This document shows, in pieces, positions 23,012 through 64,000 of a stretch of 64,000 nt of DNA; position 1 is the first letter of the stretch, and each line of letters opens with the position of its first letter. The notes under the pieces are model-generated. The model was given only the letters and a program-made list of their open reading frames with translations. It made no database searches and was not told the origin of the DNA. Source of the DNA: Spiroplasma turonicum (GTDB lineage Bacteria; Bacillota_I; Bacilli_A; Mycoplasmatales; Mycoplasmataceae). Position numbers and translations under genes: made by a program. The stretch is taken from positions 434,001-498,000 of the forward strand of contig NZ_CP012328.1 in the NCBI RefSeq assembly GCF_001262715.1. Reading direction: 5' to 3'.

Positions 23012-23030
23012 AATTTTTGAAAGGTTTGTA

Positions 23031-24563: not shown

Positions 24564-24565
24564 TT

Positions 24566-26287
24566 ATGAATGTAAAAAATAATACCTACATTTTTTTGGA
24601 GAAAATAAAAAACTTTTTTCAAGGTAATTCTATAAACTCAAAACTTAAGTGTTTAAAAACATCTTTTTTTGCAATAGTTTTTGGATTATTACTAGCTATA
24701 TTTTTTATTTTTGTTAGTGGATTTAATGGGTTTTCATTTTTAGGGGTTTCTATTTCAAAAGCTTTTAATTTTCAAAAGTTTGGAATAATGTCAAATATAG
24801 AAAAAGTTATTTTATATTTCTCTATATACTCTTTATTAGGTTTTGGACTAGCTCTTGGTTTTAAAGTTGGAATATTTAATATGGGAGGATCTGGTCAAGC
24901 ATTGTTTGGATTAATGTTTACTATATTAATAATTCAATCAATAGCTGATAAAAATGGAATAACATTTGGAGAAGTAAATAAAATTAATGTCATTTTAGTT
25001 TTTATTTGTTTTATTTTAATGGGAACAATTATTTCGGCATTATCTGGTCTTTTAAAAGTCTTTTTTAATATTCACGAAGTTGCAACTACTATTCTTTTAA
25101 ATTATGTAACTTATTTTTTATTAAAATGAGTTATTAATATAAATGGTGATCATTGAGGCAATACATCCCCAGGATTAAACTACAATTGATTATCATTATT
25201 TGGTATAGTTTGATTATTACCAGTTCTATTAGTTATATTATCAGGTACATGTATATCGCTAATTTTATACTTTACAAAGTGAGGTTTTAGATATAAGGCT
25301 GTAGGTAGTTCTCCAACTGCTTCTAAATATGCAGGTATCAATGAAAAACTTTATATTTTAATAATAACTATTGCGCAAGGAATATTAATGAGCATGGGTG
25401 GGTTTATTTATTATTTTGGAGTAGCATATAGTCAATCAATTCAAACAGACAATATACCTACATTAGGTTATGATGCTATCGCTATTGCACTTATTGCTTT
25501 TAATAATTTTCTTGGTATACCATTTGTATCATTTCTTTGAGCTATATTCCAAGTTGGATTCAAAGCTGCTCAATCAACACCACAGTTTGTTAATTTATCA
25601 AATCAAACTTCAACATTAGTATTTGGTTTGATTACTTATTCAGCAGCAATATATATAATATTCTATAAGATAGAATTTATAAGATGAATTAATGACAATA
25701 TTATTAAATATAATGATATTTATCTTAGAAAATTAATAAAAGATAAAAAAATTATCTTAAAGAATTATAAAACTAATCAAAAAGACTTATTTAAGAAAAA
25801 AAGTGATACAACTTTGCACGATTTACATTTGTTAAGTAAGAAAATTAAAACTATAAAAAGTGAAATTAGTGATTTAAAGATTAATAGTTTAAATGAATAT
25901 AAAAATAATTCAATTTTAGCAATTAAATCATTGTATAAGCAAAATAATAATAAAATTAATAATGATTTTTTTGAAAATTTATTGAAAATTAAAAATAGCT
26001 CATCTTTAAATAAAAAAGATAATAAGAAACTTTATAAAGAAACTTTGTTAAAAAATTACAACGAACTTATTAAAAACTATAAAAAAACAAAAAATAATAA
26101 TTTTAAATCATATAAAGAAGCATTAACTCAATTGAAAACTTATATTAAAACTTATCAAATAAATATTTTTAAAAAAAATATATTAAAATTAGATAAAAAA
26201 AATGATAACTACAAAAAAATGATTGAAGATGAAAAAATCAAATTTTTTGATTTGAAAAAGGAGGTATTTAATAAGTATGCTTGATAA
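24566..26287 (+). CDS. Nucleoside ABC permease 1, long C-terminal tail
   Basis: This gene encodes 573 residues with TGA as Trp. Residues 1-375 match the branched-chain/ribose-type permease fold (about nine membrane segments, GFKVGIFNMGGSGQALFG, NIHEVATTILLNYV, GYDAIAIALIAFNN). The remaining 200 residues are a hydrophilic Lys/Asn/Leu-rich tail with heptad-like spacing, probably a cytoplasmic coiled coil, which ordinary permeases of this family lack. The gene starts two bases after the ATPase. Its last codons GCT TGA TAA overlap the start of permease 2 by 11 bases, and the GGAGG for permease 2 lies inside it. Confidence 0.88.
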
Positions 26288-27191
26288 CTTTTATCTTATA
26301 GTTTCTACTTTATTAGGCTTTTTCACAATCTTTTTAATATCTTCAATATCTGGGTTGATTTCTGAAAGAGCTGGTGTGATTAATGTTGGAATTGATGGTT
26401 TTATGACTATTGGAGCATTAATTTTTTGTATAGTTGGTAAAACTATGAATAATAATTTAACACAATTTATAGCAATATTAGTGGCAATTATATGTGCTTC
26501 ATTATTTTCTTTATTACATGCATTTGCTTCAATTACATTAAAAGCAAATCAAATAATTTCAGGTACTGCAATAAATTTATTTTCACAAGGAATAGGACTT
26601 TATTTTGCATCATCAAAAAACATCTCATCTATGGGTAGAATAAATTCTGGATATACTTTAATAGGTTGAGGACAAGAAAATTTTCTTACAATTTATTTTA
26701 TATTAGCTATTATAATAACATTTGTTGTTGGAATATATTTTAGCTATACAACAGTTGGTAAAAGACATATTGCAGCTGGTGAAAATCCAAGTACTCTAGA
26801 TGTTGTTGGTATTAATGTAAATAAATATAGATATATTGCAATATTATTTTCAGGTTTACTTGCTGGTTTAGCGGGATGTTTTTTTGTAATGATTTATAAT
26901 TCTTCAAGTTTTTATGGTACTGTCAATGGGTATGGATATTTAGGTTTAACAATATTAGTAGTGGGACAATGAAGAATCAAATATATCCTATTATTTAGCT
27001 TTTTATTCTCTGTATTTTTTTCTTTATCAAATATATTGCCTTTATTGAATATAAATGATTTTTTATCTACTAATAAGTCATTATTACAGGCATTTCCATT
27101 TTTGTTATCAATAATTACAATGGTTATATTTGCAAAGAAATCTTCACCACCGATGGCTGTTGGAGTGCCATTCATTAAGACTAATAGATAA
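26277..27191 (+). CDS. Nucleoside ABC permease 2
   Basis: This gene encodes 304 residues with TGA as Trp, the usual length for the second permease of BMP-type nucleoside importers. It has about eight or nine membrane segments and family sequence: SGLISERAGVINVGIDG, ANQIISGTAINLF, AAGENPSTLDVVGINV and YGYLGLTILVVGQW. ATG 26277 sits inside the last codons of permease 1 with GGAGG upstream, so the two are translationally coupled and presumably form a heterodimeric channel. 74 bases with an A/T-rich spacer separate it from deoD. Confidence 0.92.
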
Positions 27192-27265
27192 ATAAATTTT
27201 ATACAACTATATATTAAGTTTAATTGTATTAATTATATAATCTATATAAAGGATAGGAGATATTT

Positions 27266-28000
27266 ATGCCAACACCACACAATAATGCTGAAAAAAATCA
27301 AATAGCTAAGAATGTTCTTATGCCAGGAGATCCAGAAAGATGTAAATGAATAGTAGATAATTATTTAACTAATGTAGAAAAAGTTTCTTCAGTAAGAGGA
27401 ATTGATGTATATACTGGACTTTATAAAAATAAAAAAATATCTGTAACTGCTTCTGGAATGGGAATGCCTTCGATGTTGATTTATGCATGAGAACTATTTG
27501 GATATTATAATGTAGATTCAATAATAAGAATAGGGACAGCTGGTAGTTATTTAGATAACACTAAAATAAATGATATTGTAATTTCAATGGCTGCTTCAAC
27601 AGATTCAAATATACAAACACATTTTAATATACCAGCTGATTGACACTATAGCCCAACCGCTGATTTCAAACTTTTAAATAAAGCTTTTGAGGTATCTAAA
27701 GCGTTAAGCTTAAATTTGCATATAGGACCAACAGTATGTACTGATGGACTATATACTTTAAAAAATGTAGAACCAGAATACTACAAAGAAAAAACTTGAT
27801 CTAATTTAAATATTTTATGTAGTGATATGGAAACTTACTCATTATATGCTTGTTCTAACTATTTTAAAAAAAAGGCTTTGTCTATTTTAACAGTTGTTGT
27901 TAATAAAGAAAATAGAGAAGGATTGAGTTCTAAGGATAGAGAAAATAATGTTAATACAATGGTTGAGTTAGCATTAGAAACTCTAATTGCTAATAATTAA
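27266..28000 (+). CDS. deoD: DeoD-type purine nucleoside phosphorylase
   Basis: The gene encodes 244 residues with TGA as Trp; ATG follows GGATAGGAG. DeoD cleaves purine nucleosides with phosphate to base and (deoxy)ribose-1-phosphate. The phosphate and partner-subunit residues are kept: TPHNNAE (H4 equivalent), MPGDPERCK (R24), VRGIDVYTG (R43), IIRIGTAG (R87). The catalytic loop is not: E. coli TVSDHI aligns without gaps to TVVVNK, putting Val212 at catalytic Asp204, while the Arg217 equivalent (Arg225) remains. VEMEAA is DMETYS here. So activity or base specificity may be altered. It closes the nucleoside import operon. Confidence 0.9.
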
Positions 28001-32666: not shown

Positions 32667-34895
32667 TTGAAAAAGTTAACTAAATTAAGTTTTTTATTAA
32701 TACTTACTATCACCATATTAGTTGTTCCTCTTTATTTTATAATTAGTCAATATAATAATAGTTTAATAAATAAGAACCCAAACCAAACACAAGAAGTTAA
32801 TGATAAAAATAATAATGGTAATCAAGGTTTCTATTCATTAGATGATCTAAAAGATGATATAGTTGAAAATCTTGGTACTATTGAATTGAATACAATCAAA
32901 AATAATGATGATATTATTGGTACTTTTATAAAACAAAAGTTTATAAAACAAAATTATAAAGTAAGTCAATTTAATGGACTGTCAAATGATGATTTTTATT
33001 TAAAATCAATAACAATTAATAAAGCTCGAATATCAATAGAAGGTTTTGTTGGTTATGTTGATGTAAAATACAGACTAAAAAATATTGAAAAATTAATTAA
33101 AGATAAAAACCTTGGACAAATATCAAAACTTGATAATAAATCTATTTTTAACAAATTTAAACTTTTAAATCCAGTATTTAATGGGCTTGATTTATCTGAA
33201 TTTTTTAGTGTAAAATACAAAAATCTAAATGAGGCAAGCTTAGTATCATCAGATTATGATCAAGATGATAAAAATTCAATTCCAAGTTTTTCACAAGACA
33301 TCACATATGAATTAGTTACTCTTGATGGATTAATATTGAATCGTTTTATTGGTAATTTAGATGTCATTAAAGATGAAGAAGTAAGAAAAGGAATTAAAGA
33401 AGCTAACTCAGGTAATGATAGTTATGTTGTTTTAGAAAGTGTTGCAGATAATTTAATAGTCAACAAAGATACTTTAGACTACAATAGTGTCAGAGTACAA
33501 TTAAGAGATGATAAAATAGCTAAAAATTACTCAGATTTAAATTATGCAATTAGTAATTTAAAAGTACTTATTCCAGAAGATAATTTAGAAGAAATAAATA
33601 AAGTTTCAGAAGAAGTGGTTATTGATACTATCATTGAAAAAAATCCTATGTTAAAAAATTACTTGAATGCAAATAAAGGTGTAAGTTTAGTTTTATCAGA
33701 AGATTTAGGTTTAACAAAAACTGAAGTCAAACTAGTAGGAACAGCACTAGACTCAACTGTTAAAATAACTTATAAATGTACTAATATACAAGGTATTATG
33801 CCTGTTCTTGATTTAGGTTCAATAACTGATTACAATAAACCAGACCCTAAATCTTTAATAATAAAACAAATTAAATCAAAAAATAAGCTTTTAAATGAAT
33901 TAAAAGATGATGACTTATTTGATATTGAAAATATAAATTATCAAAATCATTCAAAAACTGATATCTTTATTAAATCATCATTTAATTTAAAAATTAAAGA
34001 TTATGGTGGTGCTGTAAACCCAACTTTTAATGTACAAAGAGCAGATGTTAAAGATAAATTTAGTAAAACTGATATTGGTAAATTTTATTGAACTTCTAAA
34101 TCAGAAATAATGCAAAAAATCTCATCTGAAAATAATAATTTACCTTTAGACAATGATAATGTTGAATTAAAAGACATAAATTATAAATCTGTCATTGTTG
34201 AAGCAAAAGAAGAATCATTTAAATACATTAATAGCGTTAAATTCACTTTTGACACTGATTTTGATAGTGAAGGTAAAAACACAAAAATAAATAATATTTC
34301 TAATACAAAATTTGTAAGTAATCTTGAGAGTATAACTCAATCTTCAATTACTTCATCACCATTAGTAGGAACAAGAATTTATGATGATTATGATACTCTT
34401 GATGGTAAAACATTGGGACCACAAGTATTTAGTTTTGACTATTTAGTGCCAATAAACTTAGAAGAAGCTTCAAAAATAGATGAATTTGCATCAATTAAAT
34501 TAAAAGGTATTATTTCATTATCTAAATTTACTTCAACAGGAGGAAGTGGAGTTACAGGTAAATCATATAAAGGTGAAAATGGTTCATTATTTGATGTACC
34601 AATAAGAAATTTATTAGAAAATGGAAGTTATCAAAAAGAATTAGATTATAATAACCTTTTTAAAGATATGCCAATAGCTTATAGAACTCGAAGTTGAGGA
34701 TTTTGTAGTAATAAAAGCTCATTAAATGTAACTTCAACTTTTAAATTTGAAGTTACAGCAGCTAACAAAACTAACGAATGAAACCAAAAAGTCACATATA
34801 AAATTACAGTTACAAACAAAATGTCTGATTATAGTACTTGCGATGATTTCAATATTGAATATCGTTTTACAGTTCAAGGTTTTACAATAGAATAG
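32667..34895 (+). CDS. Membrane-anchored secreted protein, family A
   Basis: This gene encodes 742 residues with TGA as Trp. I place the start at TTG 32667, with AAGGTGAT just before it; ATG 32652 is in frame but has no ribosome binding site. One N-terminal hydrophobic segment (about 7-31) without a lipobox Cys acts as a signal anchor; the rest is predicted to be outside. The body contains repeated units of the form VGYVDVKYRLKNI...LGQI. The same layout occurs in the genes at 57090 and 62789. The C-terminal domain has two Cys about 45 residues apart (GFCSN, YSTCDD), as in the 57090 protein. It lies nine bases before a giant FtsX-like permease, so the two are likely co-expressed. No function is known. 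Confidence 0.85.
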
Positions 34896-34904
34896 GTGTT
34901 TTAA

Positions 34905-37900
34905 ATGGATATCAAAAATAATAACTCTAATCCTGACAAAGAAATTAAATTTTCTGCTGAAGAAAATAAATTAGCAATTGAAAGGGCAAGACAAAAAAGT
35001 AAAGAATTAAAAAAGCAATTAAAACAAAAAAATGAAAACATAAACCTTGATAATTATGATAACAAAATAGCTATTGAAAAGGCTAAATTAGAAGCTTTAA
35101 GAATTAAAGAAAATTTAAAAAAACAAAAAAAATTACAAAAACTTAAAAAAAATAATAAAAAAGTTGAAATTACAATTAATAAACCTTTGAATGTAGTACA
35201 ACCAGATTCTTATGAAGAATTAAGTGTTTATAGCAAAAAACAAAAACTAAAAGTTATAAAACCAAAAGTTAAAAAGCGTAAATTAAATGGGCTGATTATA
35301 AGATCTGGTATTAAACAAATGTCAAAAAATTACTCTTCAGTAATTTTTATCTGGATATTAGTTTTAATTGCATCAAGTTTATGTTTTATACTTTCATTAT
35401 TTTATGATAGAGTTGATAATAATTTTAATATTTTATCTAATCAATCTAATTTAAGAGATTTTGTTGTCGATATTGACCAAAACGACAGAATAACTTTTAA
35501 TGAAAAAGAATTGGTCGGAGGAGAAAAAATTCTTGATTATTCAAATAATGATTTGTATCAACAATATTTAATAAATACATTATCTCGTAAAGGTAAATAT
35601 TATGATAATGAAAGTGATGAAATCATTGGTAATAATTATTTTAATTGATCTAGAACAGAAGCTAGAATGTTTGACGGTTTAAAATTAAATGATGTAGATT
35701 TAACTACAAGAGTCATTGCTAAAACAGGAATAATTAATAATATTGATAATGAAGGTGAAGAATTAGAAGATCAATTAGAAACAAACGAAGTGGATAAGTT
35801 AGTTGTATACGAAAGTGCTAATGATAATGTTAAAAATCCATTTAGTGAAAATAAAACAGAAGCTGCCAAACAAGTAGTATTACAATATAATTTTGCAAAA
35901 AAACACAACATTAAATTAAATGAAATTGTTAGATTAAATCCTGATAAATATGGCAACCAATTAATTGTAAAAAATGATGTTAAAGATTTATCATTTGGTT
36001 ATGAAGTTAATGATATTAATAATGAAGAAACTGGTATTAATAAATCTAAATACTCAGACCAAAACTGATTTCAGGTTGTGGGTTATGGAACATCAATTGA
36101 CTTCTTTTATTCATATAAAAGTCGTGATAATCCCATACCTAACATAAATACAGAAGTCAATGCTTATGTTGCTCCAGAAGTTCTGGGATTAAATGCATCT
36201 AAAATATCAAAAACATTCTCATTGTATAGTTATGATCCCTCTAGTTCAAAATTAAATACAGTTTCTGATTCTGATAGAGAAGTATATTTTTCAGCTAAGT
36301 TCATTGATAATAATAATTATAATGAAAATCTATTAAATTCAATGAATTCTGAATATATACGATACGGTAACTTATCACAAAAAAACAAAAAATTAATTTA
36401 TTCAGTTAATGACTCAACTTATAAAAACTTTTCTCGTTTAAGTATTTATAATAATGCTTTCTTTGTAATTAAATTTGTGTCATATTTTTTCTCATTTCTA
36501 ATTGTTTTTATCACAATATTTGTAATTAGCCAATTTATAAAAAAAGAGTTAAAAGATTCTGAAAAAAAAATAGGTACATTTAAGGCTTTGGGTTGTAGTA
36601 ATTCAATGCTTTCAAATTTCTTTTGAATATTACCAACAGTAACAGTTTTATCTGCAGTATTAGTATCATATTGTCTTGTAGTTTTTACTCAAAACTATAT
36701 TCTTGACGTTTTTAAAAATTATATAAATCTTAATTTTGGAAACATGTCTGGTTTATTTTATTATGCTGCTGGTATATTACTGTGTTTTGTATTATTATTT
36801 TACTTTATTTGTAAAACATCAACAAAGTCGTTTATTAAAAGAGATGCTTCAAGTTTATTATATGGTGTTACACAAAAAAGACATTCTAAGTATATATTTG
36901 TTTATAAGTCATTTTATATATACTCAAAATTTAATGCTAAACTTCATGCAGCATTATTTGCAAGTTCATTTAAAAAAGTGATGACAACATGTTCGATTAT
37001 ATTTATTTCGACTTTGTTATTATCATTTTCTTCTATAATTCCATTTGTTATAAATAGTAATAAACAAAAAGCATTTGAAGGATTAAATTATAATAGTGTT
37101 GTTGAATATAATCAACCATTAGCAAATAACCCATATTCTTTTCTAAAAACTTATAATCCAAATAAAAATAATGATTATGACTATGATGTAAAAAATAAAG
37201 TAGTTTATGATTATAGTGAGGCTATTGACAAGAAAACTAATTTTTATACAGCATTACCAACTAAATTAAATGAGTATGGAAATATAGATTATGACTCGAA
37301 TCAAATAATTGATGATTTATTAAATAATGATATAAGCCGTAATTATTTTTCACTTAATTTACCTATTTTAGATGATGAAGGTAATTTAAATGATATTAAA
37401 CTATCAAAAGAGTTATCAAAATTAGCTTATTCAAATTATAAAAATTATTCGTTAAAATACCTTAAGATCTTAAATAAATTAAATGTTTCTAATATTAATG
37501 ATAGAACATCAACTGAATATAAAACTGTTGAAAGTATTTTAAATCAGTGAATAGACTACTATAATTTATTGAATCAAATAGACAAAAGTATTAGCTCATA
37601 CATTGGTAATGGAACTAATAAAGAATTAAGCAAATCAATTAAAAGTATTTTTAAAGAACTTCAATTATTTTATATAAAATATGATACAAATGTAAGATTG
37701 TCTAAAACTAATAATTATATAAAAGATGATTATGTTTTAGATGAAAATAAAGTTAAGAACATAAATTATAATAATTTAATATTTACCAGCGACAAAAACT
37801 ATTATGAAAATATAGAAAACACTCCTAATCCATTTTCTTACATAGTTTATAACAATAAAATGGCAAATAATGTTAGCAAATCATATGAGGGTTTTTTAAA

Positions 37901-39824
37901 CTCATATAAAAATAATAAGATTTATTATAAAGATGTTGATATAAGAAATATTGTGTTAGACAATCAATCAGATTCCGATTTAAAAATCTTAAACTCATAC
38001 TTATTGATGTGATTTTGAGTTAACTTTTCAAATCAAATTGGAGAAACAATATTTCAATCATTTTATTCTCACGAATCTGATGCTATTAAAGAAAATATAA
38101 AAAATGCGTTATTAAATGATAAAGATTATAATTTTTCATATAATTTAATTCCATTTGATTCTACATTAGAAGAAAAGGGAACTTTATTAAATGGAAGTTT
38201 TACATTAAATAATAATTTAAACAATCTTAAAATTTATGGTATTGATGAAGACACTCAATCTATTGATTTAAAAAATGATGACGGTGAAAGTATGCAACCA
38301 GACCTTTTCAGAAATGTTAATTCTAGTTTAGGGGATTATTATCCAATTATTGTAAATAATTCATTAGCTGAGAAGTTTAACCTTAGTGTTGGTAGTTATT
38401 TATATGGTATAAAAATCCAAAGTAATAAATTAGTAAGTTATGACACCTTGCCTTCTGGTAATGGCAAACAAGGTTCTCCAATTGACTTAAATAAACAAGT
38501 AAATTTTGGAATAAGTAAAAACCATAAAACAAGTGACAATCAGTTCTATACAGAATATAAAAAGAATTACTATTCTAAAGAAGAGTATAATATAGGTTGA
38601 GCTACTGAAAATAATAAAATAAAAGTTGCAAGTATTTGTACTGGTATTTCTTCATCACAGAATGCAAAAAATTGTAATGATGAAAATAAAGTTAATATTG
38701 CTGTAAATAATTTATCTGATATAAATTCCCCATCTGATATTCAAAATAAGGTGTGGAATTCAGATATAGTTTCAGAAAAAAATGATTTAGATAAAAACTT
38801 TATTGTTGTTGGTGTTCAAAAAAGTTATGGTGACCCAAAGGCATGGATTTCTAATAAAAATGCAAACAAAGTTCTTGGATATGATAATGTAAAAAAATAT
38901 TTCTTTAATAATTTCTTTATTCAAGAATGATATAAAAGAGATTATTTAACAAAGTATTATAATGAGGAAATATTTAAAGGTTTTACAAAAGAACAATGAA
39001 GTGACTTTATAACTTATTTTAACCAAATAATAACCGCTTGACTTGGTGATACACCAAAATATAATACGAGAAATGATAATCCTTATGATGATTTTACTGA
39101 GATGTTTTTAAACTTGTCAGAAAATTATGATGATGTTTATGGATATAAGAAATTTTCTTCAATTATAAACACAATATTTGAAAATGAGTACCCAATATTT
39201 AATTATAAATATAAAATAACAAGTACTGCTGACGATTCTAATTTTAGTACTTCAAAAACTCAAGAATATGGAGATTATACAACTATTGGATTATATGGTC
39301 AAAGAGTTGATGATGAACAAACTGAATCATTTATCTATAAAGATGGCTATATTAAAAATAATATATCTTCAATAGATAATATTATTAATCAAAAAGATTT
39401 TTTAAATAAGTTAACAGATATTATATATGTAGTCACAATCATGATTATAATAATAGTATTTATAATGTCATTTATTATTATATTTATTAGTTCTGTTTAC
39501 ATAATTAATGAAAACTCATCGTTTATAGCAACAATGAAAACATTAGGGTATACAAATAAATACATTATTGGTCAAATATTTATGATTTATTTGTTACCAA
39601 TTTTTATAACGGTGACTATTGGATTTACATCATGTTGATTTATTTTAAAATATTTATTTAATACTCTTTCGATTAACTCATCACTAGTAATCCCTTATTT
39701 ATTTAGTTTTTATTCACCAATAATTGTTTTTGGCATAATATTCTTTGTTTATTTATTTTCAATTTATGTTTCTTATAAACCTATAACTAAAATCAGTCCA
39801 ACTAAGGTATTGGGTGATCAATAA
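34905..39824 (+). CDS. Giant FtsX/MacB-like permease
   Basis: This gene encodes 1639 residues with TGA as Trp; ATG follows AATAGGTG. The first 130 residues are a strongly charged Lys/Glu coiled coil, presumably cytoplasmic. Membrane segments lie at about 142-165, 518-543, 568-590, 612-632, 688-712, 1505-1530, 1562-1588 and 1598-1622, with two large external domains between (about 170-510 and 715-1500). KKIGTFKALGCSNSML and ATMKTLGYTNKYI are the paired loops typical of FtsX-domain ABC permeases, and the end ISPTKVLGDQ fits the family. No ATPase is adjacent, so one must be supplied in trans or the protein works by another mechanism. It is coupled to the family A secreted protein. Confidence 0.88.
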
Positions 39825-39886
39825 AAAAATAAAAATATTTTTATACTTTATCATAATATAATTTAGTTAATTAAAGAGGGATGGTT

Positions 39887-41926
39887 ATGAAAAAAATATT
39901 AACTATATTAGGTAGTTTATTTATTGTAGTTTCACCAATTGGTGCTATTGTTAGTTGTAGTAGTTCAAATAGTAATAGCTCATTATTTGATGATTCAATA
40001 CATTCTAATAATGGAGAATATTTGCCACAAAGTGTAAATAATGTTACTGAACAATTTAATAAATTAAATAATGATAAATATTTTACAAATATAAATATAG
40101 AAGAATCTAATAGTGATTTGATAAAAAATGACATATTAAATCAAGTTGCTGATAATATAAAACTAAAATCATCAGATTTTAAAGTTACATTGGCACAAAA
40201 TAAAAACTTTTCATTACCTTTTGTTGATAATCTAAATTTAGGAGAAGAATCGATTACGTCTAAGAATTTATTACAAACTGATGGTAAAATAGACATTTCT
40301 TTATATTATTTCGATGAATTACTATCTACAATTACAGTGAAATATGCTTCATCAATTTTTGAAGCCTATAATAATGTTGTAAATATATTTAATTTTAATA
40401 GTTTAGATAACTTGGGGAAAAACAATCCTAAGCAATTAGATGTAAGTCTTTTAAGGATTGATGCACTTGGAAAAGATGTTACATTAGGAACAATTTATTC
40501 ATTGCTTCAAACCATCAGAGCAGTATCAGGTTTAGGTCCAATAAAACCATTAGTTAAGGATTTAGACAATATAGCAAAAATGGATTTAAAAAGTTTAGAA
40601 ACTTATGATAAAAATAATTATGATAATTTTCACAATGAATTTGAAAATAATTTTAGAAGTTTAATAACTCATGTATCGGATTTACTTGTCCAATTTGGTC
40701 AAAAAGATGAATTTGAAGTACCAGTTGGTGATAAATTAGTAAAAATTAAGCTTAGTGAAATATTGGATGTAAATATCTTAGAAATTCTTAATATTGATGT
40801 AAATTCTTTTAGTAATGATATGATGAGTATTGAAATTGGAGATCAGTTAGGTAAAAACAAAATTACAATATTTGATATATTAAAAAATGTAGAACCAATG
40901 ATTGTTTATTTGTTTAATATGATTTTTTCTACTAAAGAACAAACCTATTTTACAACCAGTCATAATTTACTATATAGTTTTCTTAAATTTTTAACAGCTG
41001 ATTTAGATGAAAATGAATCAATTGCTAAAATATTTTATGCAAATTTTAATAAGGAGACCGATGGTTTAAGTGTTAGAGCAGCTTCAACTAACTTAGATGT
41101 ATTTTTTTTAAATGCTTTAGTAGGGTATGATAAAAATAGAAGATACGAAAAAGGTAATTTTTATATAAAAGTAAAAGTTGTCATAAAAATAGAAGAGTTA
41201 GGGTTAGAAAGTTGAATTGCTTCAATTGTAAAGAGTATAGTAGGGAGTGATATTTTAACTGTTTTAAATAATGAATATCTTGGTAAAGTTTTAGAATCAG
41301 TTCAAATTACTCCATCAATAATCCTTCAACAAATGATAACAAATATGTATGAACATAAAGAATCTAATGGATATTTTGATTGAAAACAAGCTATAATAGG
41401 TAATCCCAATGATAACCAAATAAATTTTGTTGAAGACATTGATGCAAATAGAATAGTTAATAATATAAAAGAAATTGCAGGCAATAGTTTTGTTTCAACT
41501 ATAGCAAATTCATTGGGTGGAACTTTAAAAGATAAAGCAATACCTATGATTAATGAAAAAGTCAATGCAATAATTCCAAGTTTTACAATGGAACCAATAA
41601 TCAGTTTGTTAAAAGATGGAATAATTAAAAGTCTTGGTGTAACTGATGAATGATTAGAAAATAATGAAGTTGAAATTGTTAAAGCAAGTTATGATTTTGT
41701 TTTTAGAAAAAATAATACTATTGATAATAATAAAATTGAATGGGTTGGTAGACTTGATTCTTTAAATATTAGTCAATTAATTAATTATCAAAGTTTTAAA
41801 ATAATATTTAGAAATGTTCAATTTAAAATTACAAACAAATTAGATAAAAAACTAGTTACATTATCAAGAGATGACATTTCATTTGATATTATTTTCTCTG
41901 ATTTAGATGTTGATAAAAAATCTTAA
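39887..41926 (+). CDS. Large lipoprotein, unknown
   Basis: This gene encodes 679 residues with TGA as Trp. ATG 39887 has GAGGG six bases upstream; the in-frame ATG at 39881 lies too close to it. Lipobox GAIVSC puts the lipidated Cys at residue 24, followed by a Ser/Asn linker. The mature protein is acidic, with amphipathic helical stretches (for example about 130-230 and 330-380) and one TGG codon near residue 620. It resembles the large lipoproteins at 672 and 54772 in length and composition; the 54772 protein shares similar helical segments. No domain is recognised. It should sit on the outer membrane face. Its own terminator follows. Confidence 0.85.
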
Positions 41927-41933
41927 TTTTAAG

Positions 41934-41966
41934 ATATAGTTAATAAATAACTATATTTTTTTTTTC
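41934..41966 (+). terminator. Terminator after lipoprotein
   Basis: ATATAGTTA and TAACTATAT pair over a five-base loop, followed by ten T. Confidence 0.8.
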
Positions 41967-41971
41967 TCAAT

Positions 41972-42000
41972 TTGATAAGTATTTTATATTTTGTTATAAC
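41972..42000 (+). promoter_or_regulatory. Promoter of Ig-like repeat lipoprotein
   Basis: TTGATA, a 17-base spacer, and TATAAC (41995-42000) precede the start codon by 19 bases. Confidence 0.65.
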
Positions 42001-42019
42001 TTAATTAAGGAGATAAATT

Positions 42020-43555
42020 ATGAAAAAACTACTAGGAATATTAACAACAATGTTCTTATCAATTCAACCAATTACTTTAATAACTTCATGTGGATCAAAT
42101 GATAATTCACATGATGCAACAACTGAAAATGATAAAATCTTTCAAATTGATGATCAAAAAGTTTATGAAAATCACAAAAAAATAATAATTGTTAATATCA
42201 AAAATCCAATAAAAAATGCTGAAATAAAGGTTATAAACAGTAATTCAGAAGATAAGGTTTATGTTGACCAAAATATATTAAATGATGAAAATGAAACAGG
42301 AAAGTTTGAATTAACTATTTATGGTAAGAAAAGAAGTTTAGAAAATACTATACAAGTAAAGTATGGTGACTTACAATGTAGTTTTAAAATCAATGTTTTA
42401 GAATCTAATAGTAGTACACCTAGATTTGAAGAGAATATAAATTATCAAGTATCTTTAAATAAAGAAACACCATTGATTGTTCATTTTGCAAATCCAATTA
42501 AAAATGCAAAATACTCTTTTATTCCAGTTGACTCAAGCGTTGTGAATGTTTTAAGCGGCAATGGTATTGATTCAGACACAAAATCAAGTATTGAATTCAA
42601 GGTAAAAGGTTTAAATATTGGCAAAACAAGAATCTTATTAAATTATGAAAATGTACAATGTGTTTTAAATATAGAAGTTAAAGAAATAAGTTCTGATGAA
42701 CCATCATTTAATTTAGAAAATTTAAAAGTAACAAAAAACAAATCTTTAACTAGAGAAATAAATGTCACTAACCCAATTAAAGGAGCTAAAATTAATATAA
42801 GTAAAGATGATAATGAATCATTAATAAATTCCTTATCTACATCAAAAACAAATGATGAAGAGGGTAATGGTTCGTTTTTAATCTATGTTAAAGCAAATGA
42901 TAAAGTAGGTAATTGTGTTTTAAATATTACTTATGGAAATATTGTAAAAAAAATATCTTTAACTGTACAAGATAATCCAATAATAAAAGCAGATGAAAAT
43001 CAAGAACAATCAGTTATGGTTGGTATGCATTTAAATAACTTTAAATTAAGTGTTGAAAACCCTTACCAATTTGCTCCAATAAAAGTTGAGGTTTCAGAAC
43101 AAGATAAAAAATATGTTGATGCTTTTTCAATGCAAGATTATGATATGGAAGAAACTGGTAAAATAACTTTAGTTGTATATGGTTTAGAAATTAAAAAACA
43201 AATTCCTGTAAAAGTTTATTATGATGAATCTTTTATTGAACTAAAATTTGATATAGTTGAAAACCCTAATAAAAAACCTGAAATTTTTGGATCACCAAAA
43301 GAAATAAATGATTTAAATACAAATCAAAGCTTATCAGTAGGTGTTTATATAAATAACCCAACCTTGGAAGGCATTTTAACAACTGATTTTGAAAATAATA
43401 AGTTTATAAATATACAAATTTCAGGAAATAAAGGAGCTGGATACTACACAATATTTTTTATAACAAATAGTAATAGAAGTGATGAAATATTTAACGTTAC
43501 ATTAAATTATGAAAACGCAGAACCAGTTACCATTAAAGTTAGTTTTAAAAAATAA
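42020..43555 (+). CDS. Lipoprotein with five tandem beta repeats
   Basis: This gene encodes 511 residues. Lipobox LITSC places the lipidated Cys at 24. The mature protein is five units of about 96 residues, each marked by a strand-turn motif: NPIKNAEI (62), NPIKNAKY (158), NPIKGAKI (251), NPYQFAPI (347) and NPTLEG (446), and each ending in a strand such as LQCSFKINV or VQCVLNIEV. The pattern is typical of bacterial Ig-like beta-sandwich domains. The neighbouring gene at 44479 has two copies of the same unit (NPIKDQKL), so the family expanded here by domain duplication. It probably extends from the cell surface. Promoter at 41972. Confidence 0.88.
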   Translation: MKKLLGILTTMFLSIQPITLITSCGSNDNSHDATTENDKIFQIDDQKVYENHKKIIIVNIKNPIKNAEIKVINSNSEDKVYVDQNILNDENETGKFELTIYGKKRSLENTIQVKYGDLQCSFKINVLESNSSTPRFEENINYQVSLNKETPLIVHFANPIKNAKYSFIPVDSSVVNVLSGNGIDSDTKSSIEFKVKGLNIGKTRILLNYENVQCVLNIEVKEISSDEPSFNLENLKVTKNKSLTREINVTNPIKGAKINISKDDNESLINSLSTSKTNDEEGNGSFLIYVKANDKVGNCVLNITYGNIVKKISLTVQDNPIIKADENQEQSVMVGMHLNNFKLSVENPYQFAPIKVEVSEQDKKYVDAFSMQDYDMEETGKITLVVYGLEIKKQIPVKVYYDESFIELKFDIVENPNKKPEIFGSPKEINDLNTNQSLSVGVYINNPTLEGILTTDFENNKFINIQISGNKGAGYYTIFFITNSNRSDEIFNVTLNYENAEPVTIKVSFKK

Positions 43556-43648
43556 CTTTAAATTTTAATAACATAATTTATTTTAGATAGTTATTTCTAG
43601 TTACTTTATTATATAATTAGTTTAACATTACTTGAAAGGAACAATAAA

Positions 43649-44233
43649 ATGGGATTTGAAGATACAAATGTAGAATTTAGTGATAGCATAAATAAAAAAG
43701 GTGAAGTTAAATTAAGAGAAGTTAAAAAACCTAAAGTACTCGAAGAAAACTTTAGCAGAATTGACTCTATAAAACAAGCAAGAGTTTTATTAAGTAGTAA
43801 AAATGGTAAAGCAAACCTATCTTCTCTTCCTGATGGCATGAAAAGATCTATAGAGAGTAAAGAAAGACTTGATAAAATAATTCATAATAAAGAACATAAT
43901 TCAGCAGATGAAATTAGAAAAAGACTAAATATTGAAGGAAAACCTTTAACAAAAAAAAGAGCTGAGGAGCTTAAGGAATCAAGATTAAAATTCTTTCAAA
44001 ATAATATAGATAAAAGCAAGTCGGGACCATTAAACAAAGTTCCTGATTTAAATAAACCAGCAGCATTAAAGTCAAAAAAATCTTCTTTATCATTTAGAGA
44101 TAAAAAAATAGAAGAAATTAATAAAACTAACAACGTTATTAAAAAAGATAAAGTTTCTAAAACTGCAAAAACAAATGTTGAAAAAAAGAAAACAATAAAA
44201 AATACTTCATCATCTAAAGAAAAAAATAAATAA
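43649..44233 (+). CDS. Lysine-rich soluble protein, unknown
   Basis: This gene encodes 194 residues; ATG follows GAAAGGAA. It has no signal peptide or membrane segment. Residues 1-110 are charged and helical; the C-terminal 80 residues are Lys/Ser/Asn-rich and probably disordered (KKSSLSFRDKK, KNTSSSKEKNK). A nucleic-acid binding or scaffold role would fit the charge but nothing proves it. It has a possible TATAAT at 43612-43617 and a strong terminator after it, so it is a single-gene unit set between two lipoprotein genes. Confidence 0.75.
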   Translation: MGFEDTNVEFSDSINKKGEVKLREVKKPKVLEENFSRIDSIKQARVLLSSKNGKANLSSLPDGMKRSIESKERLDKIIHNKEHNSADEIRKRLNIEGKPLTKKRAEELKESRLKFFQNNIDKSKSGPLNKVPDLNKPAALKSKKSSLSFRDKKIEEINKTNNVIKKDKVSKTAKTNVEKKKTIKNTSSSKEKNK

Positions 44234-44245
44234 AATTAATATAAT

Positions 44246-44287
44246 AAAACTTTTAGTAAATTGAAATTTAAACTAAAAGTTTTTTTT
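44246..44287 (+). terminator. Terminator after Lys-rich gene
   Basis: A twelve-base stem, AAAACTTTTAGT with ACTAAAAGTTTT, and a T run follow the stop codon. Confidence 0.85.
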
Positions 44288-44478
44288 ACCATCAAACTAT
44301 TAGTAAAAATTTAATATTTAAAAACATGTTAAATATTATATTAATCTTATGTTAAATAAATAATATATAGTTAGAAATGTAAAATTAATTTCAAAAGTTA
44401 GAATTAATGTCTTAATGTATTTCGTTTTATAAGGTTATAATACAAATGTTGATATTATTCAACAGGAGGAAATATAAA

Positions 44479-45150
44479 ATGAAAAAACTATTAGGTATAT
44501 TAGCAGCAACTGGATTAGTTGCTACAACAGGTGCTACTGTAATATCATGTAGTGATGAAGCAAAAACTGCTTTTCCTGCAATAAAAGCACCAGATGTAAA
44601 AGTCGGGGAAACTAAAGAATTTGATGTTGAAATGAAAAATGGAGATAGCAAAACAGAATTAAAAGCTGTAGAAAAAAAAGATGAAAATTCATTAGAAGAA
44701 ATTAAAGTTACAGTAGATTCTCAAAATAAAAATAAATTTAAAGTTTCTTATAAAGGTAAAGAAAAAAACGATAAAGCTACTTTAGAATTAAGTTATGGAG
44801 ATTTAAAACAAGAAGTTACTGTTAAAGTTTTAGAAGCAGACGCTCCATCTACTGATCCAGTTCTTTCAGCAGATAAAACTGAAGTTACTATAAAAAAAGA
44901 TGAATCAGCAAATGTAAAAATTACTGTAAAAAATCCTATTAAAGATCAAAAACTTACTGTAGAAGATTCTAATAAAGAATATGTGACAACTTCAGTAACC
45001 CCTGATACTGCAGGTCAAACTGAATATACATTAAGTTTAAAAGGAATTAAAAAAACTGATAGTCAAAAAGAAGTGAAAATAAGTTATAAAGATGCAAAAG
45101 ATATAACTATTAAAGTGACAGTTACTGAAGAAGAAGTTTTAGAAATTTAA
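44479..45150 (+). CDS. Two-repeat surface lipoprotein, spiralin-like build
   Basis: This gene encodes 223 residues with lipobox TVISC (Cys24) and ATG after ACAGGAGGA. The mature protein is Lys/Glu/Thr/Val-rich, has no Trp, and is built of two beta-type repeats of about 98 residues, marked near 54 (KNGDSKTEL) and at 152 (NPIKDQKL). The repeat is the one found five times in the 42020 protein. Small size, no Trp, high Thr/Val/Lys and a strong Shine-Dalgarno sequence resemble spiralin, the abundant lipoprotein of Spiroplasma; homology to spiralin itself is not shown by any motif I can name. TATAAT lies at 44436-44441. It is likely highly expressed. Confidence 0.85.
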   Translation: MKKLLGILAATGLVATTGATVISCSDEAKTAFPAIKAPDVKVGETKEFDVEMKNGDSKTELKAVEKKDENSLEEIKVTVDSQNKNKFKVSYKGKEKNDKATLELSYGDLKQEVTVKVLEADAPSTDPVLSADKTEVTIKKDESANVKITVKNPIKDQKLTVEDSNKEYVTTSVTPDTAGQTEYTLSLKGIKKTDSQKEVKISYKDAKDITIKVTVTEEEVLEI

Positions 45151-45197
45151 TTTTAAGTTATATTATTAATAAATTAAAATAAATTAAATATTCGATT

Positions 45198-45223
45198 AAA
45201 CCTAAATTATTTTAGGTTTTTTA
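45198..45223 (+). terminator. Terminator after two-repeat lipoprotein
   Basis: AAACCTAAA and TTTAGGTTT pair over a four-base loop, followed by T. Confidence 0.85.
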
Positions 45224-45275
45224 TTTAAAGATTAAATTAATCTTTTATTTGCAAGTATAATGAAAGGAAGTCAAG

Positions 45276-45836
45276 ATGAGAAGAAAATTAATGATGTTAA
45301 ATTTATTTTGTACATCAAATTTATTTTTAACAAATATTATATCATGCAGTGTTGATAATGTTAAGGAGTTACAATATAAAGAAGGAAAAAATAATAATGA
45401 TGTTGTCAAATTATTAAACTCTAATCTTTCATATATTTCTTCAAGCAAAGAAAAGATTGAAATTGCTAATGGCAAACTTAAAAAAGATTATTTTGATACT
45501 GATTATAAATTATACTATGATGAATTTGGTAGAGAAATTATAGAAGATAAGATGGAAGGAACTTTAATTTATATAGATGGTCAATCTACTGTTCCTAACA
45601 AGTCAACATTATCAAGTTATATTTCCGACATTTTTATAGGTTTAGACACTTTAAAAAATGAGTTGATTGGTACTATTTTTGATGGAAACCTTACAACATT
45701 TTCATTAAGCATTAAAGGAAAAAAAGACAGTTCTGAATTAGAACTATTTGTTTTAAAATTAAATTATACTTTTAACTCTGAATATTCTAGTCTTAAAGGA
45801 GTTAAGATTTTACAAAAACAAATTACATTAATATAA
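45276..45836 (+). CDS. Small lipoprotein, unknown
   Basis: This gene encodes 186 residues; ATG follows GAAAGGAAG. The leader MRRKLMMLNLF ends in lipobox NIISC with Cys at 24. The mature part begins with a helical Asp/Asn-rich stretch and continues with short beta-type segments (TLIYIDGQSTVP, TFSLSIKGKKDSSELELF). No domain is recognised. It sits between the two-repeat lipoprotein and a 70-residue soluble protein on the same strand. There is no clear terminator after it, so it may be co-transcribed with the next gene. Confidence 0.8.
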   Translation: MRRKLMMLNLFCTSNLFLTNIISCSVDNVKELQYKEGKNNNDVVKLLNSNLSYISSSKEKIEIANGKLKKDYFDTDYKLYYDEFGREIIEDKMEGTLIYIDGQSTVPNKSTLSSYISDIFIGLDTLKNELIGTIFDGNLTTFSLSIKGKKDSSELELFVLKLNYTFNSEYSSLKGVKILQKQITLI

Positions 45837-45901
45837 TTATTAATTTTATTTACTTAATTAGTTTTTTTATTATAATTATTTTAAGAGAGGTTTATAAATA
45901 C

Positions 45902-46114
45902 ATGACAAAAGAAGCATTTTTAGAAAAATGAACAAATTTAAATTATGTTAAAAATGAGAAATCAATTAAGGTAATTGATAAAGAAACTGAAAAAAGTGTA
46001 ATATGGGTTATGCCTAAAAACAACAATATAGGAGTTAATACTTATTATGGTGTATCGCTCGAATTAATGGCAGACTTTGTTGAATTAATGAGAGATGAAT
46101 TAAAAGTTTGATAA
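45902..46114 (+). CDS. Small soluble protein, 70 residues
   Basis: The gene encodes 70 residues and is visible only with TGA as Trp. ATG follows AAGAGAGG. It begins MTKEAFLEKWTNLNYV and ends ELKVW before TAA. The single TGG codon (VIWVMPKN) and two TGA codons all encode Trp. The shape (helix, strands with WVMPK, Tyr/Gly turn, acidic helix) suggests a compact folded domain. I do not recognise it. It lies 65 bases after a small lipoprotein gene and has its own terminator. Confidence 0.75.
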
Positions 46115-46118
46115 AATC

Positions 46119-46147
46119 AATTCTGAATTAAATTCAGAATTTTTATT
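46119..46147 (+). terminator. Terminator after 70-residue protein gene
   Basis: ATTCTGAA and TTCAGAAT pair over a five-base A/T loop, followed by T. Confidence 0.75.
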
Positions 46148-46248
46148 TTATTATTGTTAATATATATTTCATTAATTATTTCTGTTTTTGCACTTACTAT
46201 CAATCTTTTCTTAAACATTTAAATACTTTAAATTATAAAGATTATAAA

Positions 46249-46257
46249 TGGTATAAT
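46249..46257 (+). promoter_or_regulatory. Extended -10 promoter with long leader
   Basis: TGGTATAAT lies 140 bases before the permease start at 46398. If used, the transcript has a long A/T-rich leader. Other TATAAT-like sites lie closer (for example near 46327), so the true start is uncertain. Confidence 0.4.
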
Positions 46258-46397
46258 AAAAATATAACAAAAACATTTGAATACATATCTAGCTAAATAT
46301 TATTAGTTATTTTAAAAAATTATTACTATAATATTTTGACTTAATAATTATTTATACTAATTTATTAATAAATTAAAATTAGAAATTGGGTATTTAT

Positions 46398-48173: not shown

Positions 48174-48218
48174 ATTATATTATTTAACTTAACTCTAATA
48201 TAATAAGCAAAAAGGAAG

Positions 48219-48230
48219 CTAAGTAGACCA
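48219..48230 (+). repeat. IS left inverted repeat
   Basis: CTAAGTAGACCA pairs exactly with the right end at 49669-49680. Looser similarity continues inward to the T run. Confidence 0.85.
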
Positions 48231-48252
48231 GTATAAAATTACTGGTTTTTTT
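48227..48252 (+). terminator. Terminator-like hairpin at IS left end
   Basis: ACCAGTA and TACTGGT pair over a six-base loop and run into seven T. It lies inside the IS, ahead of the transposase start at 48268, where it would block read-through from the host gene upstream. Confidence 0.8.
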
Positions 48253-48267
48253 GATAGAAAGGAAATA

Positions 48268-49662: not shown

Positions 49663-49668
49663 AATAAT

Positions 49669-49680
49669 TGGTCTACTTAG
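49669..49680 (-). repeat. IS right inverted repeat
   Basis: TGGTCTACTTAG is the exact reverse complement of the left end. The adjacent inward hairpin (rev. strand ACCAA...TTGGT then T run) mirrors the left end. Confidence 0.85.
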
Positions 49681-49700
49681 GTTACACAATGCTATAGATT

Positions 49701-49746: not shown

Positions 49747-49768
49747 CATTCTTTGTATTAATAAACAA

Positions 49769-57089: not shown

Positions 57090-59183
57090 ATGAAAAAATT
57101 AGTTTTATTATCAAGTTTTTTATTAAGTAGCATTGCTTTCTCATCCAGCTTTTTCTTGATAAATAATGGTTCTAATTCTAGTGAAACTTCATCTAAAACT
57201 AACAACAGTACTTCAGATGATATTGATAATAATAAGTATTTAGATCAAATGAATGATATAAATAAGAATTTAGATTATATACCTTTATTAAGCCCTTCAA
57301 AGATTATAGAAGAATTCAAAAATAAAAATAAGAAGTTTGCTGATTGTGATGTAAAAGTAAAAGAATTCAGTGAAAAAACAGCAAGAATAACTGTTAAAGA
57401 CTTTATTGGATTTGTTGATATTAATTTTAAAGTAAACAGTTTATCAGGTTTATTCGATATTAAAGACATAACTCAAATACCTGACTATTCTAATGAGGGC
57501 ATCATGAGTGCAATTGAATCAAAAAATCCAAATTTAAAAACATTTAATAAATCTACATTCCAATATTCATTAAAATCAATTAATAAATTTGAAATCTATG
57601 CACCAAGTATTAATGCAACTGTTTCATTTAATATATCTCCAAAATCATTAAGTACATTAATAACTAATACAATTATTACTAGAAAAATTGATGATCCATA
57701 TAATGAAAATAAGATAATTGATGCAGTCGCAGAAGTTAATCCATTAATTAATATGGATAAATCATTAATATTAGTTGATAAGTCTTCAATAACATACAAT
57801 GGAGCTGTTATATATTCTAATAAAAGTTTTGATTCAAAAAGTAGAATTACTATAAATTATAAAGTTAATAGCATTACAAACATGATAAGCAATTTAGATC
57901 TTGGATTAGTAAATAGTTTTGAAGATAAAAACTTAATAAATGATTTTTTAAATAAAAACTCTGTATTAAAAGATTATTATTCTAGTGGTTATTTAGATAT
58001 AAAAATAAATCAAAAGAAAGCAACTAATTCATCTGTTTTAATTAAAAAAATTGGAACATCAATTAGTTCGAATATTACATTTAATTATAAGGCTTCAGAT
58101 ATTAGTTTATTAATTACAAAACCTTCTTTAAGTAATAGTATTGAAAAATATTCTAAGTTAAGCCCAAACCAACAATTAAAATCTGCTGTAATGAATGAAA
58201 ACTCTTATTTATCAGAGTTTAGTTCTTATAACTTATCTGTTTCAAATATTAAATATGATTCATACAATGTTAATGATACATATATAAATTATAGTTATAA
58301 TCTTAGTTTATCTAGTTACAATGGTAGTAAAACTATAACTGGTAAAATACATAGACCAAATATTTATTCATCATTCACAACAAGAGACTTAGGAACAGTG
58401 GATTGATCAAATGCTAATCAAGTTATAAATAAAATAAGAGATAGTAATAAAAATGTTAATTTCAATGAAATTAAACCAATTAATGTAAATTCTTACAATA
58501 AAGGGGTTGTTATTGAAGCTAAAGAGGACTCATTTATTTATTCAAATATGTTTACTATAACTATGGATAGTAAAATATATAGTGCTGACTATAACATAAA
58601 AGCTTCTGTTTCTGAAAATCCTGATTCAGAAAGAGTTAGTGGAGGAGTATATAATAATAGTTCTTTCTTGGCACTTAGATTTGCTGAAAATGAAGGTTGA
58701 ACAAATAATGGTGTTTTTAGATTTGAAACAAAAAACCCATATCCATTAGCTATAAATTCATCAACTTTTAGTAATATAAATAATAAATATTTAAAATATT
58801 CATTTGATTTTAATACTTATCGAATGAGAAATAGTGAAAAAACTGATTATGGAATGAGTGAAAGTTGGTTAAAAAACTATGATGTTATTGATCAAAATGA
58901 AATAGTACCATTAAGTAAAGTTTTAAATGGATATACTGGACAGTTTAAAAAAGTGTTTTATGGAGTTAAAGTAAAAGAGAGAGGTGGATTTTGGTCAGGA
59001 TATTGTAATTCTAGTGATTCAGGTACAAGAGATATAACTGCATATATTGATTACAAAATAACAATTGATAATAATAAAATAGTATTTAACTTTACTTCTA
59101 GTTGATACATCAGTAAAGGTGTTGAATGTTGAAACACACAAGTATACTTCAAATATTCTATTCGTTGAGTATCGATAGAATAA
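57090..59183 (+). CDS. Membrane-anchored secreted protein, family A
   Basis: This gene encodes 697 residues with TGA as Trp; ATG follows AAAAGGAAAG. The N-terminal hydrophobic segment (about 4-25) has no lipobox Cys. A Ser/Thr/Asn linker is followed by NKYLDQMNDI and repeated units of about 85-100 residues (IGFVDINFKV..., SYNFN-like strands). The first 300 residues align closely with the gene at 62789 (NKYLDQM, LLVDxxSxTYNGAVxYxNKSFD), and the general plan matches 32667. The C-terminal domain has Cys in SGYCNSS and in VECWNT, 41 apart. It is followed 39 bases on by a repeat protein gene. Function unknown; a surface role is likely. Confidence 0.85.
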
Positions 59184-62788: not shown

Positions 62789-64000
62789 ATGAAAAAAACA
62801 ATATTGATAACATGTGCTTTATTAAGTACTATAGGATTAAATGCAGCTTTATTTCTTAAAATTTCAAATAATAGTGTTACAACAAGCAATAACTCAAATA
62901 CAAACAATTCTAGTAATGAAGTAAATAAATATTTAGATCAAATGCCTGATATTAAAACTGATTTAGGTTCATTAAGTTCCTTAGAAAAATCCAAAATTAT
63001 AGAAACATTTAAAAGTTATAATAAAAAGTTTGCAAATGATGAAATAAGTATCAAGCAATTTGGTGAAAACTTTGCAGAGATAACTATAAAAAATTTTATA
63101 GGAAAGTTAAAGGTTACTTTTAAAATAAGTAGTTTTCAAGGTTTATTTAAAATAAGTGACCTTGGCATTATATCTGAATACACTAATGAAAGTGTAGTTT
63201 CAAAAATCGAAGAAAAAAATGAGTCATTTAAAATTTTTGATAAATCAAGCTTACAATATAGTTTTAAAGGAATTAATATCTTTGAAGTTTATTCTAAAAA
63301 TATTAACAAGTCTTATAATTTTAATATAACACCTAAAAATCTTTTTACAATTATTCCTAATTTGACTATTCAATCTAAAATAAATAATCCTTATGATAAA
63401 TCTGAAATTATTAATGCATTAGCTTCAATTAATCCAATATTAAATTTTGAAAAATCTTTGTTATTAGTTGATGAAAATTCTATGACATATAATGGTGCAG
63501 TTGTTTACACTAACAAAAGTTTTGATAATAAATCTAGACTAACAGTTAACTATCAAGTAAATCAATTTACTAATATGATTAACACAACTAACATTGGTGA
63601 GATTAATAGTTATAGAGAAGAAAACATAATAAATGATGTATTAAATAAGAATAGTATATTGAGAGATTATTATAAAAATAAATATTTAAATATTGTTATT
63701 ACAAATAAAGGGGCTTGAAAATCAAGTTTAAAAATAACTAAAGTAGGTACATCAACTAGCTCTACTATAGATTTTAGTTATAAAGCTGCTAACGTTGACA
63801 TATTGTTAGACAACAAAGCAATTTATGGCAATATTTATTGATTTAATAAAATTAAGTCTGGTGATGAACAAATTAAAGACGTTTTAATTGAAAAAAATAG
63901 TTTATTAAAAGATTTTAGTAAAAATGATTTAATAGTAAATTCTTTAAGTTATAAATCATTAGAACCAAGTTTAGAATATATTTATTATACATTTAGTTTG
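62789..64000 (+). CDS. Membrane-anchored secreted protein, family A, 3' cut
   Basis: The visible 404 residues run to the window edge in frame with TGA as Trp. ATG follows AAGAAGGA; TATAAT lies at 62757-62762. The N-terminal hydrophobic segment (about 4-24) has a Cys at residue 9, too early for a lipobox. A Ser/Asn/Thr linker leads to NKYLDQMPDI. The protein follows the 57090 protein residue by residue in many places (LLVDENSMTYNGAVVYTNKSFD), so the two are recent duplicates flanking the repeat gene. The C-terminal Cys domain is beyond the window. Confidence 0.87.

Follow-up and report, generated by a model that had tools for sequence, protein, structure and literature searches.

A conserved three-gene cassette around a giant FtsX-type permease in Spiroplasma turonicum, and a remote candidate ATPase

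Genes and proteins at the locus

The window analysed here is a stretch of 64,000 nucleotides of Spiroplasma turonicum (G000:C1:434001-498000, in a single-contig genome of 1.26 Mb). Its long genes form uninterrupted reading frames only if TGA codes for tryptophan (code 4). This, together with the closest named relatives of the ATPase described below, which belong to Spiroplasma and Mesoplasma, points to a Spiroplasma-type mollicute. The Spiroplasma lineage comprises wall-less bacteria. The locus consists of three consecutive genes, which we call A, P and B (Table 1). The original prediction described a 742-residue surface protein (A) ending nine bases before a 1639-residue permease (P), and both the coordinates and the 9-nt gap agree with our data. 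The lipoprotein gene B, which starts 56 nt after P, was missing from it.

Table 1. Features of the A-P-B locus and related genes (window positions unless a genome coordinate or locus is given)
Feature	Position	Strand	Size	Basis or remark
Gene A, surface protein	32667..34895	+	742 aa	ORF under code 4
Six tandem repeats of A	32862..34301	+	~79 aa each	profile self-comparison; AlphaFold2 model
C-terminal beta-sandwich domain of A	34302..34892	+		alignment; model
Gene P, giant Type VII ABC permease	34905..39824	+	1639 aa	PF02687 twice; TM scan; model
First external domain of P	35394..36473	+	~360 residues (~164-523)	between TM1 and TM2
FtsX domain 1 of P	36486..36809 (G000:C1:470486-470809)	+		PF02687, E 4.0e-10
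Second external domain of P	37053..39431	+	~790 residues (~717-1509)	model
FtsX domain 2 of P	39438..39800 (G000:C1:473438-473800)	+		PF02687, E 2.9e-15
Gene B, lipoprotein	39881..41926	+	681 aa	lipoprotein signal; cassette conservation
A2a, second A copy without P	57090..59183	+	697 aa	22% identity, E 1.8e-29
A2b, third A copy	62789..64000	+	693 aa when complete	leaves the window; L016:1789-3870
Candidate ATPase, LolD/MacB/YbbA-type	G000:C1:16200-17090		296 aa	top LolD-model score
Other giant permeases	207224-211045; 416059-420150; 840718-845031; 1185100-1189533			genome coordinates

Gene A starts with a TTG a few bases downstream of AAGGTGAT; an alternative ATG at 32652 would yield a product of 747 aa. 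A TM scan places a single N-terminal membrane anchor, without lipobox, at residues 8-26. Profile self-comparison locates repeat starts at residues 66, 146, 224, 304, 380 and 467, with probabilities up to 98%. In the alignment of A (13 members), two cysteines of the beta-sandwich, C680 and C725, are invariant. The AlphaFold2 model (pLDDT 82) shows alpha/beta repeats, where pLDDT is mostly >85, followed by the beta-sandwich; its pTM of 0.54 means that the overall rod shape is not fixed by the model. As modelled, A forms a rod anchored in the membrane, made up of six repeats and a beta-sandwich tip. Foldseek comparison of the model gave no match at E <= 0.001. The best VIA-align score (Z 5.3) is weak and says nothing on function; at Z ~4-5, the repeats weakly resemble Rib and S-layer-like folds and the tip weakly resembles lectin, CBM and adhesin-like folds. 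No Pfam or NCBIfam family scored above its cut-off, and searches of these collections recognised no adaptor, hydrolase, other enzyme or lipid-binding family; there was no LolA-like match either.

In P, the FtsX domain PF02687 was found twice (E 6.5e-20). Hydropathy places TM segments near residues 145, 524, 578 and 617 and again near 698, 1510, 1554 and 1606, i.e. eight segments in two groups of four, and in both groups an ectodomain follows the first segment; the ~60 residues between the halves contain no additional one. The two huge external domains announced by the original prediction are thus both present in the TM scan. P lacks a PF00005 domain, i.e. a fused ATPase. On these sequence features, P joins two 4-TM FtsX units, both bearing giant ectodomains, into a single-chain pseudo-dimer. 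The original prediction, which put a cytoplasmic coiled coil at the N-terminus, needs correcting in one point: the first ~115 residues of P are highly charged but, compared to nine relatives, the conserved part starts near residue 116. The charged N-terminus was considered as a conserved element and rejected, as it is species-specific among the sequences aligned.

Structural comparison was carried out with an AlphaFold2 model covering residues 685-1639 of P, built from 18 aligned sequences (pLDDT 78, pTM 0.74). Each of the 50 top-ranked Foldseek rows from the PDB is a Type VII ABC protein (MacB/LolCDE/FtsEX/BceAB/HrtBA/YtrEF/YbbAP), with LolE at the top (E 1.1e-4); the E-values are modest, which insertions of this size would lead one to expect. 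The best structural match by VIA-align is YbbP (Z 16.5 over 326 residues, 6.8 Å). The periplasmic domain of LolE (5udf_D) aligns at Z 11.8 over 184 of its 203 residues (rmsd 5.0), and LolC (6f49_A) and YknZ (5f9q) score Z 11.0 and 9.0 by VIA-align. Taken in isolation, the LolE and LolC periplasmic domains align over ~190 residues. From the LolE, LolC and YbbP matches, the second ectodomain of P is, at the level of the model, a MacB/LolC-type core enlarged by large, mostly helical insertions. This core makes P a Type VII ABC permease, a membership that rests on fold. At the level of sequence profiles, LolF and FtsX are matched only marginally, and NF038347, the Gram-positive FtsX equivalog, scores 16.3 bits, its cut-off being 225. 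FtsX-type permeases themselves are found in 86/89 genomes searched from the order.

For B, no Pfam or NCBIfam family scored above cut-off beyond the lipoprotein signal, and no enzyme, lipid-binding or hydrolase family was recognised. Comparison of A with B by hhalign aligned the signal peptides only. The same was true of A with a 483-aa lipoprotein encoded beside a paralogous permease, and of B with 350-aa and MOLPALP-like lipoproteins.

Lipoprotein genes are dense in the window, at 672-2963 and at 39881-56916. One of them (54721-56916) has a weak MOLPALP family score and two neighbours (42020-43555 and 44446-45150) have a repeat-like region in common. Near this cluster, ORFs with near-identical starts (MPKIYD...TEAVKRYKNGENIDKIAN) were observed at 48268-49662 of the window, at L016:4542-5084 and at L014:2413-3810. 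In L014 the ORF has 465 aa, whereas the other sites hold split or short versions; it is probably an insertion-sequence transposase.

Distribution of A, P and B among relatives

An initial pattern scan of genome contigs with P as the query left 0/92 matches confirmed, and a promoter scan was uninformative in this AT-rich DNA (112 found, 95 expected). Neighbourhoods were compared over 20-kb stretches in relatives. Full-length A is confined, among 60 family genomes searched, to 10 genomes of one genus; single A-type repeats can also be made out in further proteins throughout the order. In all 10 congeners with full-length A, P lies directly 3′ of it (broken in one, G043), and in each of the nine loci read from end to end B follows immediately 3′ of P and encodes a lipoprotein of 650-700 aa. 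Gaps across loci are 0-29 nt between A and P and 9-64 nt between P and B. The three genes occur in the same order and on the same strand in G028, G030, G031, G035, G038, G041 and G046, with two copies ~12 kb apart in G030; the stretch covered in G032 stops inside B.

Presence and absence follow the same pattern. A, P and B are jointly present or jointly absent in 20/20 congeners (10 with, 10 without), counts that are not phylogenetically independent. Here a close P is one scoring >800 bits, or the broken one of G043, other P paralogues reaching <=445 bits. Outside the 10 congeners, the 60 family genomes contain none of full-length A, close P and full-length B. The A-linked P proteins form one clade with support 100/100, and 5-6 of 6-7 splits are common to the trees of A, B and P, which disagree only where the support for a fork is weak. 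G043 preserves the gene order with broken genes: A has two stops, B one stop, and P combines a frame break and stops with an internal duplication. A 4-TM gene upstream of this decaying locus (L087, 5835-15489) is intact.

From these sequence comparisons, A-P-B is a three-gene cassette, present as a whole or not at all in a given relative, at 21-57% identity in the 10 genomes that keep it. The adjacency of A and P claimed by the original prediction is therefore conserved, and the permease was found linked to A in every genome with full-length A. A lack of conservation of the gene pair in related species, which had been named as evidence against it, is not what was observed; in the other 10 congeners, A and close P are absent together. 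The pair as a unit was incomplete, since the conserved unit is the triplet.

Two further A copies without permease had also been reported, and both are real (Table 1). Genomes with such solo copies are S. turonicum, with two extra, and G032, with one. They adjoin a gene for a large secreted protein, of 1146 aa in S. turonicum and 1124 aa in G032, the two being 43% identical. This protein itself contains an A-like stretch (hhalign 80%). The region 57090-64000 of the window and L080:13062-18653 of G032 thus show a second conserved arrangement of A without permease.

The S. turonicum genome encodes five giant FtsX permeases, P included, none with an adjacent ABC ATPase gene. One of them belongs to a second cassette of like layout (G000:C1:413849-421186; L013:7849-15186), composed of a 4-TM protein, a 483-aa lipoprotein, a 1363-aa giant FtsX permease and a 350-aa lipoprotein. 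Its relatives were observed in G041 (L089), G016 (L113), G019 (L114) and G014/G027 (L125, L126). A 4-TM protein of ~230 aa, which we call S, is often encoded upstream of giant permeases: upstream of A in L082 and L084-L088, and upstream of other giant permeases in L089-L094, L112, L113, L125 and L126. The two S groups align by profile (hhalign 94%), and no Pfam or NCBIfam family scored above cut-off for S. It is absent beside A-P-B in S. turonicum, so S may be a fourth, optional subunit.

A candidate ATPase encoded elsewhere

No ABC ATPase gene adjoins P, as claimed before; the nearest PF00005 matches in the window, at ~23.1-24.3 kb, are part of a different operon, that of an ABC importer. That region (21599-28000) looks like a BmpA-type nucleoside importer operon, with successive genes for a lipoprotein, an ABC ATPase of 510 aa, two permeases and a protein resembling purine-nucleoside phosphorylase. 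The ABC ATPases of the window (15675-16379, 23031-24563) were rejected as partners of P: they are not adjacent to it and sit in other gene groups. Elsewhere, L060 (PotA type), L063 (PstB type) and the drug-exporter-like ATPases of L013 and L071 were rejected on family scores.

The search for a matching ATPase in the rest of the genome, suggested together with the original prediction, left a single candidate by sequence (Table 1), ~452 kb from P and near the origin. Its uniqueness in S. turonicum rests on the ranking of the genome's ABC ATPases by the LolD model: the candidate comes first with ~200 bits (199.6-200.6), ahead of a PotA-type ATPase with 148 bits. Its score is below the LolD equivalog cut-off (199.6 versus 307.75 bits), and its closest solved relatives include MJ0796, MacB, BceA, YtrE, YbbA and LolD. 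The gene is present once in each of 60/60 family genomes (66-90% identity) and lies ~16-40 kb from the contig start in most of the complete ones. In S. turonicum it is flanked by an hslO-like gene on one side and dus/lysS-like genes on the other, and no permease is encoded there.

The equivalent position in G014 and G027 reads hslO, 4-TM protein (S), P, lipoprotein, ATPase, P2, dus, lysS. In S. platyhelix and S. ixodetis the ATPase is immediately preceded by an FtsX gene (20 nt away at one S. ixodetis locus), and in Mesoplasma lactucae it is immediately followed by one. In S. ixodetis, L140 and L142 carry two ATPase copies, each directly behind its own FtsX permease, the two permeases being of different length classes (1083 and 1331 aa). 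Outside the family, the ATPase is <=5 kb from an FtsX match in 32/36 scorable genomes. Inside it, the distance in the scored genomes is 128 kb or more among the FtsX matches listed, and all these distances are upper bounds among such matches; G014 and G027, where the ATPase is still adjacent to permeases, are family members outside the distance sample.

Synteny and uniqueness together lead us to propose the candidate ATPase as the one that serves P. It is probably, on sequence grounds, best read as one motor common to the five giant permeases. P could instead use another ATPase, though none of those examined looks as suitable. On the simplest reading, an ancestral permease-ATPase locus gave rise to this situation in the lineage, the permeases having multiplied and moved off with one ATPase left for all. 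As a multitask ATPase, it would then drive all five giant FtsX permeases, a step suggested by the same synteny and uniqueness.

Proposed function and comparison with known systems

In Type VII transporters, ATP binding under the membrane moves an ectodomain outside it, and dedicated partner proteins set the task and define the function (PMC12646458). We favour the reading that A, P and B form a cell-surface Type VII ABC complex, powered by the remote shared ATPase and handling a lipid or lipoprotein of the outer leaflet, and consider it moderately probable. The earlier idea of a surface machine fits the Type VII assignment; built on the pair alone, with B omitted, it was too narrow. As that prediction also proposed, P may act on, present or release A. 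In the proposed mechanism, an ATPase dimer would dock beneath both coupling regions of P. ATP binding would close the TM bundle and move the ectodomains outside the membrane (mechanotransmission), and no substrate would cross the membrane during this movement. The working part would consist of the ectodomain insertions with A and B. Most likely, a lipid or lipid-anchored protein would be pulled from the outer leaflet and handed to, or displayed on, A and/or B. Two observations go against this reading: neither A nor B could be placed in an enzyme or lipid-binding family, the fold matches of A being weak, and the solo copies in S. turonicum and G032 mean that A-like proteins exist without P.

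A closer parallel to LolCDE is rather improbable in our view. P would extract lipoprotein B, or others, for shedding or transfer, with A as acceptor or tether. The ectodomain core resembles the periplasmic domains of LolC and LolE, LolE is the top Foldseek match, every intact locus has a lipoprotein gene next after P and other lipoproteins flank the paralogous permeases. However, there is no outer membrane as sorting target and A has no LolA-like match; the ATPase falls far under the LolD equivalog cut-off, and a Type VII fold in common does not fix the cargo.

P might instead control an adhesin, in an FtsEX-like manner, its ectodomain movement extending, clustering or releasing A, whose tip would bind host or substrate. 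FtsX-type permeases can move extracellular partners instead of cargo (PMC12646458), A resembles a stalk with a tip domain, and Rib repeats, S-layer domains, adhesins and carbohydrate-binding modules are among the folds that it weakly matches. Against it, fold matches at Z ~5 or less say nothing about function, A copies occur on their own without P and the constant presence of B is left unexplained; we consider this reading unlikely. Efflux, or a host-defence resistance pump of the MacAB/YknXYZ kind with A as extracellular adaptor, appears less plausible still: the Type VII fold, the elongated, membrane-anchored form of A and the pairing of Gram-positive MacB homologues with adaptors (PMC5985334) would suit it, whereas A is modelled as alpha/beta repeats and a beta-sandwich with no adaptor family match, and P has no fused ATPase, unlike MacB. 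We would rank outer-leaflet extraction first, ATP-driven adhesin control of A second and efflux lower. It is true that gene order by itself is no proof of contact, but that A and B are unrelated passengers merely co-transcribed with P and kept by operon structure is very doubtful for a triplet that is retained in 10 genomes at such divergence and behaves as one unit: G030 has it in duplicate, 10 congeners lack all of it and in G043 all three genes have decayed.

The literature search found no work on how giant FtsX permeases function in Mollicutes. The orphan permease P now has defined candidate partners and a named candidate motor, a three-gene complex to examine. We know of no earlier case of an ATPase shared among Type VII systems, and our data suggest that S. 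turonicum is, as far as known, the first. If true, a single motor would power a modular, exchangeable set of surface machines, and loss of one ATPase gene would disable the whole set. Tentatively, and at slightly less than an even chance, giant-ectodomain permeases with their own surface-protein sets and one dispersed multitask ATPase may constitute a new Type VII class in wall-less bacteria.

The Escherichia coli Type VII ABC system YbbAP-TesA (PMC12646458) offers several points of likeness. Its permease is a single chain of two fused MacB-like halves, as in P, with an ectodomain between the first two TM helices of each half, and it has a separate ATPase of the same branch and an extracytoplasmic partner. 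It differs in that YbbP has 10 TM helices including two linker helices, where P has eight predicted and no linker. The ectodomains of P are also far larger, A and B have no esterase family, and the ATPase gene here is remote and apparently shared. LolCDE/LolDF likewise combine a LolD-like ATPase and a LolC/LolE-type ectodomain core with lipoproteins nearby. They have two chains or a homodimer in place of one fused permease, and the LolA-like match, the outer membrane and an ATPase above the LolD equivalog cut-off are missing here. MacAB-TolC and YknXYZ share the Type VII fold and an anchored extracytoplasmic partner encoded beside the permease. MacB however carries its ATPase fused to the permease N-terminus, and in our case A matches no adaptor family and an outer-membrane channel is not expected.

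FtsEX has the FtsX domain in common with P and, by analogy, may share ATP-driven control of an extracytoplasmic partner. P differs by its two FtsX units, its giant ectodomains and a score under the FtsX equivalog cut-off, and the lineage has no cell wall, nor A or B a hydrolase match. In BceAB the ectodomain is in the second half only, unlike P where both are large, and visual inspection of the translated genes on either side showed no histidine kinase. Filing the present system under LolCDE, MacAB, FtsEX, BceAB or YbbAP is not justified because at least one defining feature of each is missing. As for the motor, MsmX and MsmK are multitask ATPases of type I sugar importers (PMC7658222). The analogy would lie in an orphan ATPase that supplies several incomplete ABC systems of a cell, with Type I importers as clients there and putative Type VII permeases here. 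The superfamily itself is known; what is new is the dispersed, apparently shared motor, the giant ectodomains and the A and B partners.
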